Source of the DNA: Sphingobacterium wenxiniae
GTDB lineage: Bacteria > Bacteroidota > Bacteroidia > Sphingobacteriales > Sphingobacteriaceae
Assembly (NCBI RefSeq): GCF_900116225.1
Contig: NZ_FOZZ01000006.1
Location: 186,001 to 250,000 of the forward strand
Direction: 5' to 3'
DNA: 64,000 bases
The notes beneath the pieces are model-generated. The model was not told where the DNA came from. It made no database searches and was given only the letters and a program-made list of their open reading frames with translations. This document shows positions 5,935 to 11,047 of this stretch, piece by piece. The translations under genes and the position numbers were made by a program. The first letter of the stretch is position 1, and each line of letters begins with the position of its first letter.

Positions 5935-7014
5935 ATGTGGAAGACTAGCGTACGATATAGACCTCTTTTTGTGGTTTTTCTTGTAGTAGGTGTATTGTTG
6001 GTAGGCAATTACCTTACCTACGGCATTTTGCTGACTTTGCCGAAGGTGGGGGCGGTTCTATGTCCGTTCATATTGTACTACGGTTTGTTGTATAAGGTAT
6101 TGTGGATGTTTTTGGATGATGGTACTTGGGAGAAGAACAAAGTTGTTCTGTTGTTCATAACAATCATCGTCAGTGTATATCCCGTATGTTACCTATTGAT
6201 CTATAAGCTATACCCCATGTTGGGCGTTGTATTGTACAAGGAACACATTGTGTTTAGGTGGCCGGCTTTTTTAGGAAAGATAACATCAAGCCTTGTCACG
6301 TTGGTGCTTTTTAGCTTTGGGGCGGTTATCCTTTCTTATACACGGAGCAAGAGGCAGACGTGGAAAAATGAATTGGAAGAGGCTAAGGTACAACTGGAGG
6401 ATATGAGTTATAGGCTAGGCCTGCGCGACATTAATCCACATTTTGTACAGGCGGTGATGATTACTGGTATTGGACGGACATTGATGGGGGCGGGTAAGCA
6501 GAACCACACCGCCATTATAAAGCTGACGGAGGTGATGCGGTATGTTTGGAATCTGGATGATGTGGGTATGCCCGACGTGATGCTTCTAAGGGAATGGGAA
6601 CAGGTGAAAAACTTATGGGATATTCTGCTGTGGAAATATGGTCAGAAAAAAGTGAAACTGATACAGGAGGGGGATCCCGACAGACAGATAATGGTTGTCT
6701 CTATGTCCTTGCTGACTTTGATGGAAAATGCGATTAAGTATACGGATTTCCAGAAAGAGAATGCTTTGGTGATTTCTTTGTCATGCTGTGGACAAGGGTT
6801 CCGGTTTGTCTGTCAGAATTATTATGACCCACAACAGCGGATGCAACAAAAGTCTTCGAGATATGGCCTACAAAATCTTAAGCAGCGGTTGAAGCGATCT
6901 TCCTTGCCACTCGATCTGATTATACAAGAAGGGCAAGGATATTTTAAAGCCGAACTAAACAACATCAACACACATGGAAAACAAAAAGACATATACTGTA
7001 GCGATAATAGATGA
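5935..7014 (+). CDS. LytS-type membrane sensor histidine kinase
   Basis: This 359-residue protein has four hydrophobic segments in the first 135 residues (about 10-32, 35-60, 70-90 and 110-135), then a linker helix and a His_kinase domain with the phosphoacceptor in D-I-N-P-H-F (His near residue 169). The N box is M-E-N-A-I-K-Y near residue 264 and the late G box is Y-G-L-Q-N-L-K-Q-R-L. The residues after NPHF read VQAV rather than the usual LFN, a departure from the family consensus. No separate periplasmic sensor domain is visible, so sensing is likely through the membrane segments, as in peptide-sensing AgrC/ComD-like kinases. The 3' end overlaps the LytTR regulator by 41 bases, which shows translational coupling. 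Confidence 0.9.
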   Translation: MWKTSVRYRPLFVVFLVVGVLLVGNYLTYGILLTLPKVGAVLCPFILYYGLLYKVLWMFLDDGTWEKNKVVLLFITIIVSVYPVCYLLIYKLYPMLGVVLYKEHIVFRWPAFLGKITSSLVTLVLFSFGAVILSYTRSKRQTWKNELEEAKVQLEDMSYRLGLRDINPHFVQAVMITGIGRTLMGAGKQNHTAIIKLTEVMRYVWNLDDVGMPDVMLLREWEQVKNLWDILLWKYGQKKVKLIQEGDPDRQIMVVSMSLLTLMENAIKYTDFQKENALVISLSCCGQGFRFVCQNYYDPQQRMQQKSSRYGLQNLKQRLKRSSLPLDLIIQEGQGYFKAELNNINTHGKQKDIYCSDNR

Positions 7015-7711
7015 CTTCTTGGAGGAAATGTTCCTGATACAGAAATATGTGGAAGATCTGCCTTTTCTGAAACTACAGATCGTTGAGTCGGATCCTGTAT
7101 TGGGGTTGGAGGAAGTGGAAAGAAGGACCGTTGATATACTGATATTGGATATGCAGATGCCCCGTCTTAACGGTGTGGCGTTTCTTCAAGCTTTGGAGCA
7201 TGTGCCGGTATTGATCGTATGCTCCAATTATACGGAATACGTGTATGATACGGCTTTATACCAGGTGGCTTATATTCGTAAGACGATCGGAAGGCTTGAC
7301 TTTGAAAAGGTTATTCAAAAGGCCATTCAGGAATGTGACGAACGCCGGGCGGCTTTAAAGAAAGAAGAAAACGTCATTTCGGTAAAGGCAGTCAAAGCTG
7401 CAGAGGGCAATATCTTAGTAGATTGTGATAAGCTCGGATATGCCGAGATTAGGGACAAGGTGATGCATTTCTATGGCGATGGTTACTTCTTGTCTGGGCG
7501 GATAACCATGCAAGAATTGAGTGAAGTGCTGAAGGCGCCACCTTTTATGCGCATACATAAGAGCTTTTTGGTCAATCTCGATTATATCGACTCATTCAAC
7601 AGCAGGGTGGTCGTCATGAAGAAATCCAAAGAGATAATCAACATAGGGGACGAATATTACCCCAGTTTTAAAGAAGCTATGAAAACGTGGCAAACTAAGC
7701 CACAGACATAA
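6974..7711 (+). CDS. LytTR-family response regulator
   Basis: This 245-residue protein has a receiver domain (about 5-125) with the phosphoacceptor Asp59 in I-L-I-L-D-M-Q-M-P, acidic residues Asp13-Asp14 and the conserved Lys103. A LytTR DNA-binding domain follows (about 145-240, with the family stretch F-Y-G-D-G-Y-F and F-M-R-I-H-K-S-F-L-V-N). It is the cognate partner of the overlapping LytS-type kinase. LytTR regulators usually bind pairs of imperfect 9-bp repeats upstream of their targets and, in several bacteria, control peptide or competence systems. The most natural target here would be the upstream peptide-acyltransferase genes, which is inference. Confidence 0.92.
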   Translation: MENKKTYTVAIIDDFLEEMFLIQKYVEDLPFLKLQIVESDPVLGLEEVERRTVDILILDMQMPRLNGVAFLQALEHVPVLIVCSNYTEYVYDTALYQVAYIRKTIGRLDFEKVIQKAIQECDERRAALKKEENVISVKAVKAAEGNILVDCDKLGYAEIRDKVMHFYGDGYFLSGRITMQELSEVLKAPPFMRIHKSFLVNLDYIDSFNSRVVVMKKSKEIINIGDEYYPSFKEAMKTWQTKPQT

Positions 7712-7792
7712 ACCTATTTTAATTTTGTTTTTAATTGTATGTAGCTATCAATTTTCCAGAATAGATACTGGAATGGTCATGCCCTGTTAAAA

Positions 7793-8095
7793 ATGATGAA
7801 ACGTAAGATTAATCAGTTAATTGAAACAGTAGCGACCATGAAAGATTTATTAGAACAGATTTCGGCAGTTCTTGTGCCGACTGACACCCCTGTGCAACAG
7901 CATGCGCTGATGACTGCAAAGGAAGTGCAGCACTTATTCGGCATTGTGCACAGTACGTATTACAGGTGGATTGAACGAGGTTATCTAAAACCCATTATTC
8001 TCGGCGGGAAGCATTATTATCAAGCGAAAGATATCTATCTGCTCTTAGAAAAGAGGAAATATCGGGAAAGGGGAGGCATGGAACAGGCTCCTTGA
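7793..8095 (+). CDS. Small helix-turn-helix (MerR/excisionase-like) DNA-binding protein
   Basis: This 100-residue protein has an N-terminal helix (residues 5-30) and a helix-turn-helix segment (about 42-92) with A-L-M-T-A-K-E-V-Q-H-L-F-G-I, then S-T-Y-Y-R-W-I-E-R-G-Y-L-K-P and a wing ending KDIYLLLEKRK. This is the pattern of HTH_17/MerR-like proteins common on Bacteroidota mobile elements. The stop codon is immediately followed by the array of 11-bp TTCG units, so this protein is a natural candidate for binding the array; no direct evidence shows that. Two ATG codons are in tandem at 7793 and 7796. Confidence 0.8.
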   Translation: MMKRKINQLIETVATMKDLLEQISAVLVPTDTPVQQHALMTAKEVQHLFGIVHSTYYRWIERGYLKPIILGGKHYYQAKDIYLLLEKRKYRERGGMEQAP

Positions 8096-8099
8096 TTTC

Positions 8100-8348
8100 T
8101 TCGACTTCTGTTCGAGAGTTGTTCGAGAGTTGTTCGACTATTGTTCGGCTGTGCTTCGGGACATGTTCGAGACAGCTTCGGGACAGCTTCGGGTTTTCTT
8201 CGACTGCGCTTCGACAATCCTTCGACTACGACTCGAAGGATTGTCGAAGCGTTCCCGAAGAGTTGTCGAACCCGAGTCGAACATGATAGGGAGAAGGTCG
8301 GGAGCATATCCGAAGAAATGCAGACCCATTCCCCGAAAATTATTCGAA
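8100..8348. repeat. Strand-switching array of 11-bp TTCG units
   Basis: Twelve units of form TTCGRNNNNNN start at 8100 and then every 11 bases (8111, 8122, 8133, 8144, 8155, 8166, 8177, 8188, 8199, 8210, 8221). After a 7-base centre the pattern continues as the reverse complement (YCGAA) at 8233, 8244, 8255, 8266, 8277, 8310, 8333 and 8344, still 11 bases apart except for one 1-base slip and three decayed units. Only the TTCG core and its phase are kept; the six other bases vary. Because 11 is not a multiple of 3 and the units lack stops, several frames stay open on both strands, but none looks like a gene. It lies between the HTH gene and the DUF6266-like gene. Confidence 0.9.
8209..8249. 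repeat. Perfect 17-bp inverted repeat at the array centre
   Basis: CTTCGACAATCCTTCGA (8209-8225) and its exact reverse complement (8233-8249) flank a 7-base loop (CTACGAC). Unlike the rest of the array, the spacer bases also match here, so a hairpin or cruciform can form. The axis marks the point where the 11-bp units change strand. Confidence 0.9.
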
Positions 8349-8350
8349 CA

Positions 8351-8390
8351 ATATCCCATCTTATCCCACTTTATCCCGTATTGTCCCTTT
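8351..8390. repeat. Four 10-bp TATCCC units
   Basis: Directly after the TTCG array come four aligned 10-mers with the core TATCCC or TGTCCC (8353, 8363, 8373 and 8383), spaced exactly 10 bases. They differ in core and period from the 11-bp array. The last unit lies about 110 bases before the DUF6266-like start. Confidence 0.75.
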
Positions 8391-8497
8391 AATTGTTGAA
8401 CCGCCTCAATAGCGATAGTTTAGCTCTCGATATCAAAAAAAAGAGAGTTCGTAGCGCGCACGACGACAATGGTTTAACAAGTAAAGTAAAAAAGAAA

Positions 8498-9139
8498 ATG
8501 GCAAGATTTTTAAAAGGAATCAATGGTGCCTACTCCGGGAAGGTAGGCAGTGTAATCGGAAGTAGATGGCGCAGTGTGGACTATGTACGTTCACTTTCTC
8601 GTCCAAGTAACAAATCGGCCTCTGATCTTCAAGTGGCACAGCGTGCAAGATTTAGATTGGCTATCGCTTTTTTATCCCCGATCAAGGATCTGCTGAATCT
8701 TGGTTATTCCGACAAACTGGAGGGACGGGCAACAGGCTACAATAAGGCTGTTCAGCATGCGATTAATCATGCGATTGTAGGCGACTATCCGGATTATGAA
8801 CTGAACTATGCGGCTGTCCAGATAGCAAAAGGAGGGTTGTCCAACCTGTTGGCTGTACAATGGGAACAAAGCGCTCCGCAGGAAATATCCCTAACCTGGG
8901 ATACCAGTACCAATAGATTCAATGCTTTCTCGGACGATACCGTGATTCTGCTCACGTACAATACAAACAAATCGTTTTTCAGCATCTTGGAGTCGGGAGA
9001 AAGAAAAGATGGAAGCTTGATAATTAACCTGCCGGCAGCCTATGCGGGTGACCATCTAGTCGGATGGGTGTTCGCAGGGCATCGGAATGGAGTGAAAACC
9101 TCCATGAGCTATTACCTGGGTGAAATTCTTCTCAATTAA
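8498..9139 (+). CDS. DUF6266-like protein of unknown function
   Basis: The protein from ATG 8498 is 213 residues and begins MARFLKGINGAYSGKVGSVI, then G-S-R-W-R-S-V-D-Y-V-R. This N-terminus resembles the DUF6266 group seen in Sphingobacteriaceae, whose function is unknown. The middle has QVAQRARFRLAIAFLSPIKDLLNLG, and the C-terminal half looks like a beta-rich domain (residues 115-213). There is no signal peptide or membrane segment. An in-frame extension back to 8393 exists but is basic, has no family-like sequence and starts in repeat DNA, so the internal ATG is preferred. A terminator follows. It sits between the TTCG array and a phage-lysis-like gene trio. Confidence 0.7.
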   Translation: MARFLKGINGAYSGKVGSVIGSRWRSVDYVRSLSRPSNKSASDLQVAQRARFRLAIAFLSPIKDLLNLGYSDKLEGRATGYNKAVQHAINHAIVGDYPDYELNYAAVQIAKGGLSNLLAVQWEQSAPQEISLTWDTSTNRFNAFSDDTVILLTYNTNKSFFSILESGERKDGSLIINLPAAYAGDHLVGWVFAGHRNGVKTSMSYYLGEILLN

Positions 9140-9166
9140 TCCTGTACACAGAATAGCCTAAGCGTA

Positions 9167-9190
9167 GAGGCACGATTAAATCGTGCCTCT
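9167..9190 (+). terminator. Hairpin terminator after the DUF6266-like gene
   Basis: GAGGCACGA (9167-9175) pairs exactly with TCGTGCCTC (9181-9189) around a TTAAA loop, followed by TTATT. It begins 27 bases after the stop codon. Confidence 0.7.
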
Positions 9191-9282
9191 TATTCAAAGA
9201 GCGCCTGTAACACAAAGACGAATCTGTTACATGATGCATCGCTTAACAAGAAGGATAGATAGAAAGAAATCTAATATCTCAC

Positions 9283-9327
9283 ATCTAATATCACAATACG
9301 CAAATCTCAATACCCAATACTAACAAA
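9283..9327 (+). repeat. CTCAATAC-type leader element before the holin-like gene
   Basis: The stretch holds CAATACGCAAAT, CTCAATAC and CCAATACTAAC ending five bases before the ATG at 9328. The same CTCAATAC(C/G)CAATACTA signature ends just before the starts of four other genes here (10622, 20877, 22336 and, on the minus strand, 53816). Confidence 0.7.
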
Positions 9328-9714
9328 ATGAACACACAACAATTACAACTCCCTCGGTCTATCCAGGATATCACCAAGGAAATAACCACAGCGCATAAAA
9401 TAGGTCTTACGCTTACCTTCCTGTTGGGGCTGTTCCTCTTCTCGGGTACGCTCTTGCAGATCCTTGACCCCGCAGCAGGCGTGCTGGACATCGGTATGCT
9501 GTCGGTGCTGCTGTTCGGACTATTGGCCGGACTGGTCGCCGTTTTCGTTAGCCTATGGCTGCAGGAGATACTCTGGCGTCCGTTCAAATACTTTCGCAAA
9601 CAGTTCTTTCACCATTTTAATCAATTGACATCATGGCAACAATGTATAATCTATTTTTCGGTATTCTTTTTATTGCTGTATGCAGCGCTGTATATGTTAA
9701 AAATTATGCTGTAG
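9328..9714 (+). CDS. Small membrane protein with three hydrophobic segments, holin-like
   Basis: This 128-residue protein has a polar N-terminus and three membrane segments (about residues 26-47, 52-78 and 106-128), with a basic loop RPFKYFRKQFFHHF between the second and third. I do not recognise a named family. Its size, three segments and its 82-base overlap with a downstream peptidoglycan hydrolase gene resemble the holin of a phage lysis cassette. Other membrane functions are possible. The translated region 9328-9632 has no overlap and codes normally. Confidence 0.5.
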   Translation: MNTQQLQLPRSIQDITKEITTAHKIGLTLTFLLGLFLFSGTLLQILDPAAGVLDIGMLSVLLFGLLAGLVAVFVSLWLQEILWRPFKYFRKQFFHHFNQLTSWQQCIIYFSVFFLLLYAALYMLKIML

Positions 9715-10367
9715 GGGCAGATGTGTCTATCCTTCGACAGGCTCAGGATGACAACTTTCGACAGGCTCAGGATGTCAACTCGGGCATTGTTAGGCTGAGC
9801 ATTTTTAGACCTGTCACGTTGAGCCTGTCGAAACGCAACAGGTCTACCCCTGCGGATCCCAATATCTACCGTGAAAAAGATGTTCCCCCTTTGGCCTGTC
9901 TCGCCCAAGGCGATGGGCGTAGGTGGACTATCCTCCAGATCGCTACTGCCGAAATCGGCGTACACGAGGCCACGGGAAACAACGACGGCAAAAGGGTAGA
10001 GGAATACCTTGCCTACACAGGTTTGGGCAAAGGTCACCAATGGTGTGCCGCCTTCGTATCGTGGTGCTACGGACAGGCAGGGCTGTCCCGGCCCCGCAAC
10101 CCCTGGAGTCCTGCATTATTTCCAAAGGAAAAGACATATCGCAAGGGCACCCACGAGGGGCGCCCCTACGAAAATCCTATCCAATCTGCAGATGTCTTTG
10201 GCATATACGGCATATCCGCAAAACGCATCAACCATGTCGGCTTGGTGAAATCCGTGCAGGGCAAATACCTCATCACGATCGAAGGCAACAGCAATGATCG
10301 CGTCGAATCCCGCCGCAGGCATCTCTCCACCATTTACGCCCTGGCAGATTGGTTGAAGAAAACGTAG
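9633..10367 (+). CDS. CHAP-domain peptidoglycan hydrolase with in-frame palindromic repeat insertions
   Basis: This 244-residue protein has an N-terminal hydrophobic anchor (about residues 4-27) and a C-terminal CHAP/NlpC-like domain (about 98-244). The likely catalytic Cys is in W-C-A-A-F-V-S-W-C near residue 135, the His in I-N-H-V-G-L-V near 202, and the E-G-N-S-N motif near 219. The family cuts amide or cross-bridge bonds in peptidoglycan. Two stretches look foreign: residues 32-70, translated from repeat DNA (peptides LRQAQDD, FRQAQDV and TLSLSKR), and residues 171-181 (RKGTHEGRPYE). Both keep the frame. Its position after a holin-like gene and before a spanin-like lipoprotein fits an endolysin. 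Confidence 0.75.
   Translation: MATMYNLFFGILFIAVCSAVYVKNYAVGADVSILRQAQDDNFRQAQDVNSGIVRLSIFRPVTLSLSKRNRSTPADPNIYREKDVPPLACLAQGDGRRWTILQIATAEIGVHEATGNNDGKRVEEYLAYTGLGKGHQWCAAFVSWCYGQAGLSRPRNPWSPALFPKEKTYRKGTHEGRPYENPIQSADVFGIYGISAKRINHVGLVKSVQGKYLITIEGNSNDRVESRRRHLSTIYALADWLKKT
9712..9857. repeat. Palindromic repeat cluster inside the CHAP gene
   Basis: TTCGACAGGCTCAGGATG occurs at 9733-9750 and again at 9757-9774, 24 bases apart, so the frame is kept. An inverted copy of the core (GAGCCTGTCGAA) is at 9821-9832. The outer bases GTAGGGGCAG (9712) and a CTACCCCTGC-like end (9844) are roughly inverted. This resembles dispersed REP-type intergenic elements, here placed in the linker between membrane anchor and catalytic domain. 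Confidence 0.8.
10143..10168. repeat. Second palindromic repeat inside the CHAP gene
   Basis: GGGCACCC (10145-10152) and GGGCGCCC (10158-10165) form a near-palindrome with ACGAG between, followed by CTAC. It reads in frame as KGTHEGRPYE. The same style of repeat follows the stop codon of this gene. Confidence 0.6.
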
Positions 10368-10578
10368 GGGCAACCCTTGTGGTTGCCCTACTATCCGTAG
10401 AGTTGTCAGGGATTTGGAAGGGGCTCTCTACGGATTGCCCATAAAGGGGAGTCTTTGACTCCTGATGTCACATTGATTGGGGATATCCAAAAAGGTTGTT
10501 AATCATTAAAAAAACGCGTTCCCGAAAAAGCATTCGGGACGAGGAAAAATGACGAAGCCTGCCTACCGTAGGCAGGCT
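10365..10578. repeat. Cluster of five hairpins after the CHAP gene
   Basis: Five inverted repeats follow one another: TAGGGGCAACC/GGTTGCCCTA (10365-10390, its first bases being the stop codon), ATCCGTAGAG/CTCTACGGAT (10393-10402 and 10425-10434), GGAGTC/GACTCC (10448-10462), CCCGAA/TTCGGG (10520-10538) and AGCCTGCCTA/TAGGCAGGCT (10556-10578). No gene is visible. The first may terminate transcription; the rest look like accumulated REP-type elements. Confidence 0.8.
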
Positions 10579-10621
10579 CATATCTCAATACTCATATCTC
10601 AATACCCAATACTATTAGACA
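10579..10621 (+). repeat. CTCAATAC-type leader element before the spanin-like gene
   Basis: Two CATATCTCAATAC units are followed by CCAATACTATTAGACA and then the ATG at 10622. It is closely similar to the leader before 9328. Confidence 0.7.
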
Positions 10622-11047
10622 ATGAAAAGAATAATCTATATTATCCCGCTATTCACCATCACGGCCTGCCTCTCCACCAAGGAGAAAGCACAATGGTCAA
10701 ATAAAACACAGAGTACACAGGAAGTAAGCAATGACAAACGTTACGGTTATACTTGGCAACAGGTGGACAGCTTCGGTCGTTGGTGGCATTTCCAGACCGA
10801 TAGCAGTTTTCGTTACCATGCCGATAGCGGTATTACCGCAGGCTCCGGTTCACTATGGCTATGGGAAAAGGGGAGCAGTCTTACACAGCAGCAGGAACAG
10901 CTTGACCAACGGACAATCGAGAAGAAAGAACAAGCCCGTAAGGAGCAGTACAGCCAAAGGCAGTCCTTTAGGATGGAAGTCTATTGGCTGTTCGCGCTGC
11001 TGGCTATTGGGATTGTCGTTTGGTTAAAAATCAGGAGGCGAGTTTAA
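10622..11047 (+). CDS. Lipoprotein with C-terminal membrane helix, spanin-like
   Basis: This 141-residue protein has an N-terminal lipobox (FTITAC, Cys16), a polar central region with a coiled-coil-like Q/E/K-rich stretch (about residues 85-115), and a C-terminal membrane segment (about 118-136) followed by KIRRRV. A lipid anchor at one end and an inner-membrane helix at the other is the topology of unimolecular phage spanins, which link and fuse outer and inner membranes at lysis. It is third after a holin-like protein and a CHAP hydrolase, as a spanin would be. I know no named family match, so the call rests on topology and context. Confidence 0.5.
   Translation: MKRIIYIIPLFTITACLSTKEKAQWSNKTQSTQEVSNDKRYGYTWQQVDSFGRWWHFQTDSSFRYHADSGITAGSGSLWLWEKGSSLTQQQEQLDQRTIEKKEQARKEQYSQRQSFRMEVYWLFALLAIGIVVWLKIRRRV

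Follow-up and report, generated by a model that had tools for sequence, protein, structure and literature searches.

What is the function of about twenty short DNA sites, spaced 11 bp apart and pointing inwards to a central mirror point, that lie beside the gene of a small putative DNA-binding protein in Sphingobacterium wenxiniae? The array was found in a 64,000-nucleotide stretch (hereafter the window; contig NZ_FOZZ01000006.1 of assembly GCF_900116225.1, positions 186,001 to 250,000). An earlier note, made from the sequence alone, described it as twelve forward and about ten reverse TTCG units in strict 11-bp phase, and proposed a multi-site operator or a recombination or packaging site.

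The array itself is real. The left half (8100-8224, + strand) consists of TTCG at 8100, 8111 and so on up to 8221, with 12 of 12 registers exact; it is followed by a 9-bp centre (8225-8233, ACTACGACT) where the two half-arrays converge, the 17 bp TTCG-N9-CGAA being read as two inward-facing unit starts. The right half (8234-8314, - strand) is inverted and carries CGAA at 8234, 8245, 8256, 8267, 8278 and 8311, i.e. in 6 of the first 8 registers (8289 and 8300 read GGGA). Two further CGAA at 8334 and 8345 (8334-8348, - strand) are shifted by 1 bp and are taken as a decayed outer end; the claim of about ten reverse units in strict phase is therefore overstated (6 strict, 2 shifted), although the observation as such holds. 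The longest exact 11-phase run of any 4-mer in the window is 12 (TTCG), the next being 5 (TCGA, CTTC and CGAA), while in 20 shuffles of the whole window (2-bp blocks) the maximum over all 4-mers was 2 or 3. The 11/22/33-bp autocorrelation score passes 4.5 only in scanning windows starting at 8020-8262.

The array lies between an HTH_17 gene (7793-8095, + strand, 100 AAs; Pfam PF12728, E 1.2e-7), the proposed binder, and a DUF6266 gene (8498-9139, + strand, 213 AAs from the ATG at 8498; PF19781, E 2.9e-34), the presumed controlled gene. A LytTR-type response regulator (6974-7711, + strand; PF04397 and PF00072) is situated upstream of the HTH gene. Between the array and DUF6266, four TATCCC/TGTCCC motifs occur at 10-bp steps (8352-8387), and similar short repeats (TATCATG, CCGACA and TGTC types) lie at a like place in some other loci; these are possible sites of the LytTR regulator. 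A TTTAGCTCTCGATATC-like motif (8415-8440) precedes DUF6266 in the window and in many TTCG-class loci. Downstream of DUF6266 (9328-11047) a small protein, a CHAP endolysin-like protein (PHROG lysis, E 6.7e-15) and a lipoprotein-like gene, or in relatives DUF5675, look like a lysis cassette, no other phage gene being recognised. Several copies of short repeats like TTCGACAGGCTCAGGATGACA occur on both strands at 9726-9850, and one stretch of these matches L013 (loci are numbered with the prefix L, genomes with the prefix G).

A search with four TTCG in phase returned, besides one short match, nine arrays in the 3.84-Mb assembly, all with the same plan of left row, 9-bp centre and right row. Since the centre was not imposed in this search, its constant 9-bp length is a finding for this genome, while for other genomes it was part of the search pattern. 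The genome holds one DUF6266 gene and one close copy of the HTH, hence none of the eight other arrays has an intact pair beside it: six stand between other genes, L014 lies before a TlpA-SusC pair, and L013 sits in a decayed copy of the module, 79% identical to the window from the end of the HTH gene to the DUF6266 start. In L014 a second 11-bp phased array with a GTAC-type core (L014:8113-8210) lies about 90 bp after the TTCG array. The window array and that of L011 are 91% identical over 224 bp while their flanks are unrelated, thus arrays have been copied about. Four of the nine (L009, L012, L015 and L016) lie at contig ends, where the assembly breaks, and two contigs (C7 and C19) share their ends over 265 bp, so that the true copy number is uncertain.

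The strict TTCG centre was found in 21 of 93 genomes of the genus and in 22 of 399 genomes of the family, one of these being in another genus; this pattern misses arrays with other cores. Of 46 array places outside this genome 40 were retrieved, and of the resulting 49-locus set L048 was omitted because its centre has a mismatch, leaving 48 arrays. The 683 exact units among the 868 registers of these arrays define the unit TTCG-[AG]-[CG]-[AT]-N-N-[GT]-[CG], i.e. the other positions vary, but within classes. Clustering of the neighbouring genes revealed two recurrent settings. In one, HTH, array and DUF6266 follow each other in that order on one strand (10 complete loci, and contig-end pieces in G039). 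In the other, 21 arrays lie upstream of TlpA-like and SusC-like genes (Pfam thioredoxin and TonB receptor in the two examples scanned). The rest are orphans. That such arrays would always neighbour an HTH plus a DUF6266 gene had been put forward as the test of the note's reading, and on this point it was not supported. In many of the leader loci (L046, L050-L052, L058-L061, L063, L065, L070, L071, L073, L074, L076, L078 and L080) the arrays lie inside long stop-free leader ORFs that run on into the TlpA-like or SusC-like genes; similar leaders, down to a shared signal peptide, are joined to different downstream genes within and between genomes, as in a cassette system, and the leader shows little codon-position bias yet stays open.

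Is the module conserved beyond the strict pattern? From listings of HTH relatives (62 of 93 genomes) and of DUF6266 (63 of 93 genomes, the listing used being partial), 25 further same-strand HTH-DUF6266 pairs were taken, which were not drawn at random. In all 25 the intergenic stretch shows 11-bp periodicity (lag-11 score 2.9-8.3), with lag 11, 22 or 33 strongest in 23 and lag 10 in two. Eight of the 25 have a different core, TTTG. Two more HTHs, in L171 and L172, have the array directly downstream without DUF6266 there.

The array unit and the HTH change together. In 38 loci all 30 HTHs with YYR in the recognition helix lie beside TTCG arrays and all 8 with TYNR beside TTTG arrays. One more YYR HTH of the genus and two of another genus (EATYYR) lie beside TTCG, and in that other genus a TYKR HTH (DSTYKR) lies beside nine TTACC units followed by a DUF6266 start. 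In the window the recognition-helix residues 53-60 (HSTYYRWI) are encoded at 7949-7972 (+ strand). Residue 57 is Y in the 29 distinct TTCG-array HTHs and N in the 8 distinct TTTG-array HTHs of the tree; however, 11 other columns separate the two groups as well and the TTTG group is one clade (support 97/91), so that this switch is one event and residue 57 is a candidate, not proven. Two displaced cases keep the match: G057 has a TTCG array at DUF6266 with its YYR HTH 4 kb away, and G080 a TTTG array with its TYNR HTH 12 kb away.

The relation was also examined in reverse, starting from 20 DUF6266 genes picked from the same partial listing for having no listed HTH of this kind within about 1 kb. 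With a two-sided fit (a one-direction consensus mixes both halves), 16 of these have an 11-bp array upstream (LLR 57-92, one shuffle each at most 30), many of them two-sided, 15 with cores other than TTCG and TTTG or not clearly read and one, L252, being the TTTG array of G080; four (L250, L266, L267 and L268) have none. A divergent HTH_17-like ORF lies just upstream in 12 of the 20, nine by profile (E 5e-8 to 0.002 on a small set) and three by eye. The helix KTLYRCE (L251 and L264, which are near-duplicates, and the less related L255) goes with CCTAC-like units (L255 and L264: array similarity 0.77 at 40% identity elsewhere), and KRTFERKV (two near-identical loci) with an ACC-GTCC type. A TANNTTTG box, the -7 consensus of Bacteroidota, lies within 300 bp upstream of 17 of these 20 genes (16 of these at 31-81 bp from a start guessed from a motif), against 22 of 56 overall and 13 of 200 shuffled draws; the window and most TTCG-class loci have none.

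How much of this joint change is specific to the helix? After removal of rows 75% or more identical outside the helix (53 to 26) and omission of L265, whose array fit was weak in the slice used (LLR 22), array similarity over 26 loci follows helix identity (r 0.59, 0 of 5000 permutations) and still does given the rest of the domain (partial r 0.34, 4 of 5000). Pairs under 30% identical outside the helix have a mean array similarity of 0.79 with like helices (27 pairs) and 0.47 with unlike helices (186 pairs). L251 had passed the filter because its ORF ends at the helix; without it r is 0.58 and the partial value 0.33 (7 of 5000). With only two YYR rows (13 loci), however, the partial correlation falls to 0.01, and without YYR rows (11 loci) to 0.00, while array similarity still follows overall HTH identity (0.32, 15 of 5000, and 0.41, 10 of 5000, respectively). 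This implies that HTH and array evolve together, but that the helix itself sets the unit is supported only by the wide YYR-TTCG class; for the rest, linked inheritance of neighbours is enough.

Some loci do not fit. Of 34 further HTH_17 loci scanned downstream, 26 have no array (best score at most 3.6, the maximum of the null being 4.1 in 300 draws of 600-bp stretches), ten of these with YYR helices, thus YYR alone does not bring an array; of the eight that have one, L233, in another genus, carries a two-sided array with a CTCCGC-type core (last 110 bases in gene orientation) about 1.5 kb from a YYR HTH. No HTH at E 1e-3 lies in the stretches retrieved around leader or orphan arrays. In G037, G022, G085 and G067, TTCG arrays persist with 115 of 152 exact units (L059 was left out of the group table), although no YYR-type HTH was found there at the thresholds used, one of three G067 HTHs being unexamined. 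Either a second protein reads these arrays, the HTH was lost or missed, or these copies have another use.

The window HTH is predicted (AlphaFold2, mean pLDDT 77.8) to consist of an N-terminal helix (residues 3-27) plus a winged HTH, a small protein with no effector-binding domain. Foldseek comparison of the model placed BldC-DNA complexes in the first six positions (6ama and 6amk first; E 0.005-0.013, weak by E-value), and a profile search of PDB sequences up to E 0.1 returned only BldC (0.016 and 0.025). It is not an annotated BldC member, since NCBIfam HTH_BldC scores only 23 bits against a cut-off of 77. The structural model of DUF6266 was of low confidence (mean pLDDT 51.3) and was not used for a fold search.

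We propose, with moderate confidence, that the array is a long, two-sided cooperative operator for the HTH_17 protein encoded just upstream of it. In this view each 11-bp unit would be the site of one winged-HTH monomer, rows would assemble cooperatively from both sides and meet at the dyad, and assembly on about 20 sites would give a sharp on/off control of the DUF6266 transcription unit downstream; silencing, rather than activation, is our guess. What the analysis itself establishes is the array with its phase and two-sidedness, its conserved place between HTH_17 and DUF6266 genes, the joint change of unit and HTH, and the BldC-like fold of the model, whereas binding and oligomerisation (neither of which was assayed), head-to-tail assembly, the sign of regulation and the DUF6266 unit as the target are inferred. 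The loss of the helix-specific signal upon thinning of the YYR class lowers our confidence in this model and slightly raises that in its rivals. The interpretation of the earlier note is thus partly supported: the array is neither a CRISPR (4 fixed bases per 11-bp unit, not repeats of about 20 bases or more with spacers) nor coding, its place between an HTH_17 and a DUF6266 gene is conserved in the genus, and an operator for that HTH is the reading favoured by the joint change, though linked inheritance explains part of it. For recombination or packaging no support was found, the neighbours being only partly scanned, and neither is excluded.

Among the alternatives, a recombination or excision control site, with the HTH as an excisionase-type directionality factor beside an att site and DUF6266 loci as cassettes that move or invert, is unlikely but not excluded. 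It is suggested by a PHROG match of the window HTH to 'excisionase and transcriptional regulator' (E 2.7e-7), by the head-to-tail filaments of the HTH_17 excisionase RdfS (PMC11963761) and by the copying of arrays, in part with flanks, to other places in this genome. No integrase was recognised among the neighbouring ORFs read by eye, of which only some were scanned with Pfam (L079 has a transposase-like ORF by eye), which leaves the presence of an integrase undecided; the order HTH, array, DUF6266 is, however, kept across species. A dispersed MITE- or foldback-like element that happens to lie here is likewise unlikely: the nine copies, four at contig ends, and the 91% identity of the window and L011 arrays within unrelated flanks speak for it, and it may well describe the orphan copies, but it explains neither the conserved place between HTH_17 and DUF6266 in many species nor the joint change with the HTH. 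Insertion could not be shown for L011, since among 39 other genomes none of the listed matches puts its two flanking genes side by side.

A centromere-like or packaging site is very unlikely, though also not excluded. Phased direct repeats are typical of such sites, the DNA-binding domains of pSK1 Par and lambda gpNu1 are in the Foldseek list (ranks 31 and 48), and an endolysin-like gene lies downstream; however, DUF6266 found no match in 50,697 phage or 72,556 plasmid records and the array none in the phages, no motor or terminase is among the 19 neighbouring proteins scanned with Pfam, and we infer that several modules with different cores per genome do not suit a single segregation site. 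An RNA or DNA foldback (terminator, attenuator or hairpin) is similarly improbable. The centre is palindromic and the window array folds better than shuffles as RNA (z -5.05, 0 of 200; another array z -3.28), but over 48 arrays left unit i is not generally more complementary to right unit i than to other right units (from the centre 0.62, 0.37, 0.42, 0.30, 0.53 with n = 7, then 0.34-0.37; off-diagonal mean 0.386), and there is no selected hairpin stem beyond the centre. Furthermore, TTTG and TTACC arrays are essentially one-sided, and no Rfam match was found in 7500-9400. A coding repeat is rejected as well: although the array is open in several frames, differences per codon position are 0.127/0.161/0.127 in the arrays of 8 leader loci, against 0.468/0.345/0.635 in the TlpA part of the same alignment.

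A wider possibility, which we put forward only tentatively, is that Sphingobacterium and related genera carry a diversified family of protein-DNA pairs, in which DUF6266 loci encode their own BldC-like wHTH and their own 11-bp phased, often two-sided array, the two having co-evolved into at least six or seven specificities (TTCG, TTTG, TTACC, CCTAC, ACC-GTCC type, CACCAG type and TATCAC, the later ones read from single fits and by eye). Two head-to-tail filaments would run inwards and meet at a dyad, an architecture not described for this fold in the literature we saw, and the array sequence could in the end be read off from the recognition helix. If right, this turns an unexplained repeat into a readable recognition code, a natural panel of small wHTH proteins with matched arrays from which residue-to-base rules for the HTH_17/BldC fold could be learnt and tested, and gives a regulatory handle to DUF6266, a domain of unknown function named in no paper of the library searched. 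Literature searches on 11-bp repeats in Sphingobacterium, BldC in Bacteroidetes, HTH filaments and coevolved operators, limited to titles and abstract starts of open PMC papers and in part to the top of the listings, returned none describing such arrays.

Of known systems, parC of plasmid R1 shares two blocks of phased 11-bp direct repeats with the array, but its partner ParR is a ribbon-helix-helix protein that comes with the ParM motor, while here an HTH_17 protein is present and no motor was found among the proteins scanned. RdfS and other HTH_17 excisionases (PMC11963761) share the HTH_17 fold and the head-to-tail oligomer, and RdfS also an extra N-terminal helix; RdfS acts with an integrase at att, however, and its authors found no consensus motif. 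The closest system is BldC of Streptomyces on the whiI and smeA-sffA promoters (PMC5859096), a small MerR-like/HTH_17 protein without effector domain that assembles head to tail on direct repeats in varying number, with one DNA turn between molecules on smeA-sffA (PMC11963761), and that is the best fold match to the window HTH. The site in the window is likewise made of direct repeats in register with the helix, with 12 units in exact 11-bp phase. BldC repeats are 9 bp, AATTXXXX(C), with an AT-rich part, loosely conserved and two (whiI) to four (smeA-sffA) in number, whereas the window array has about 20 units of 11 bp with a strict core in two inward-facing rows, and its HTH has an extra N-terminal helix.
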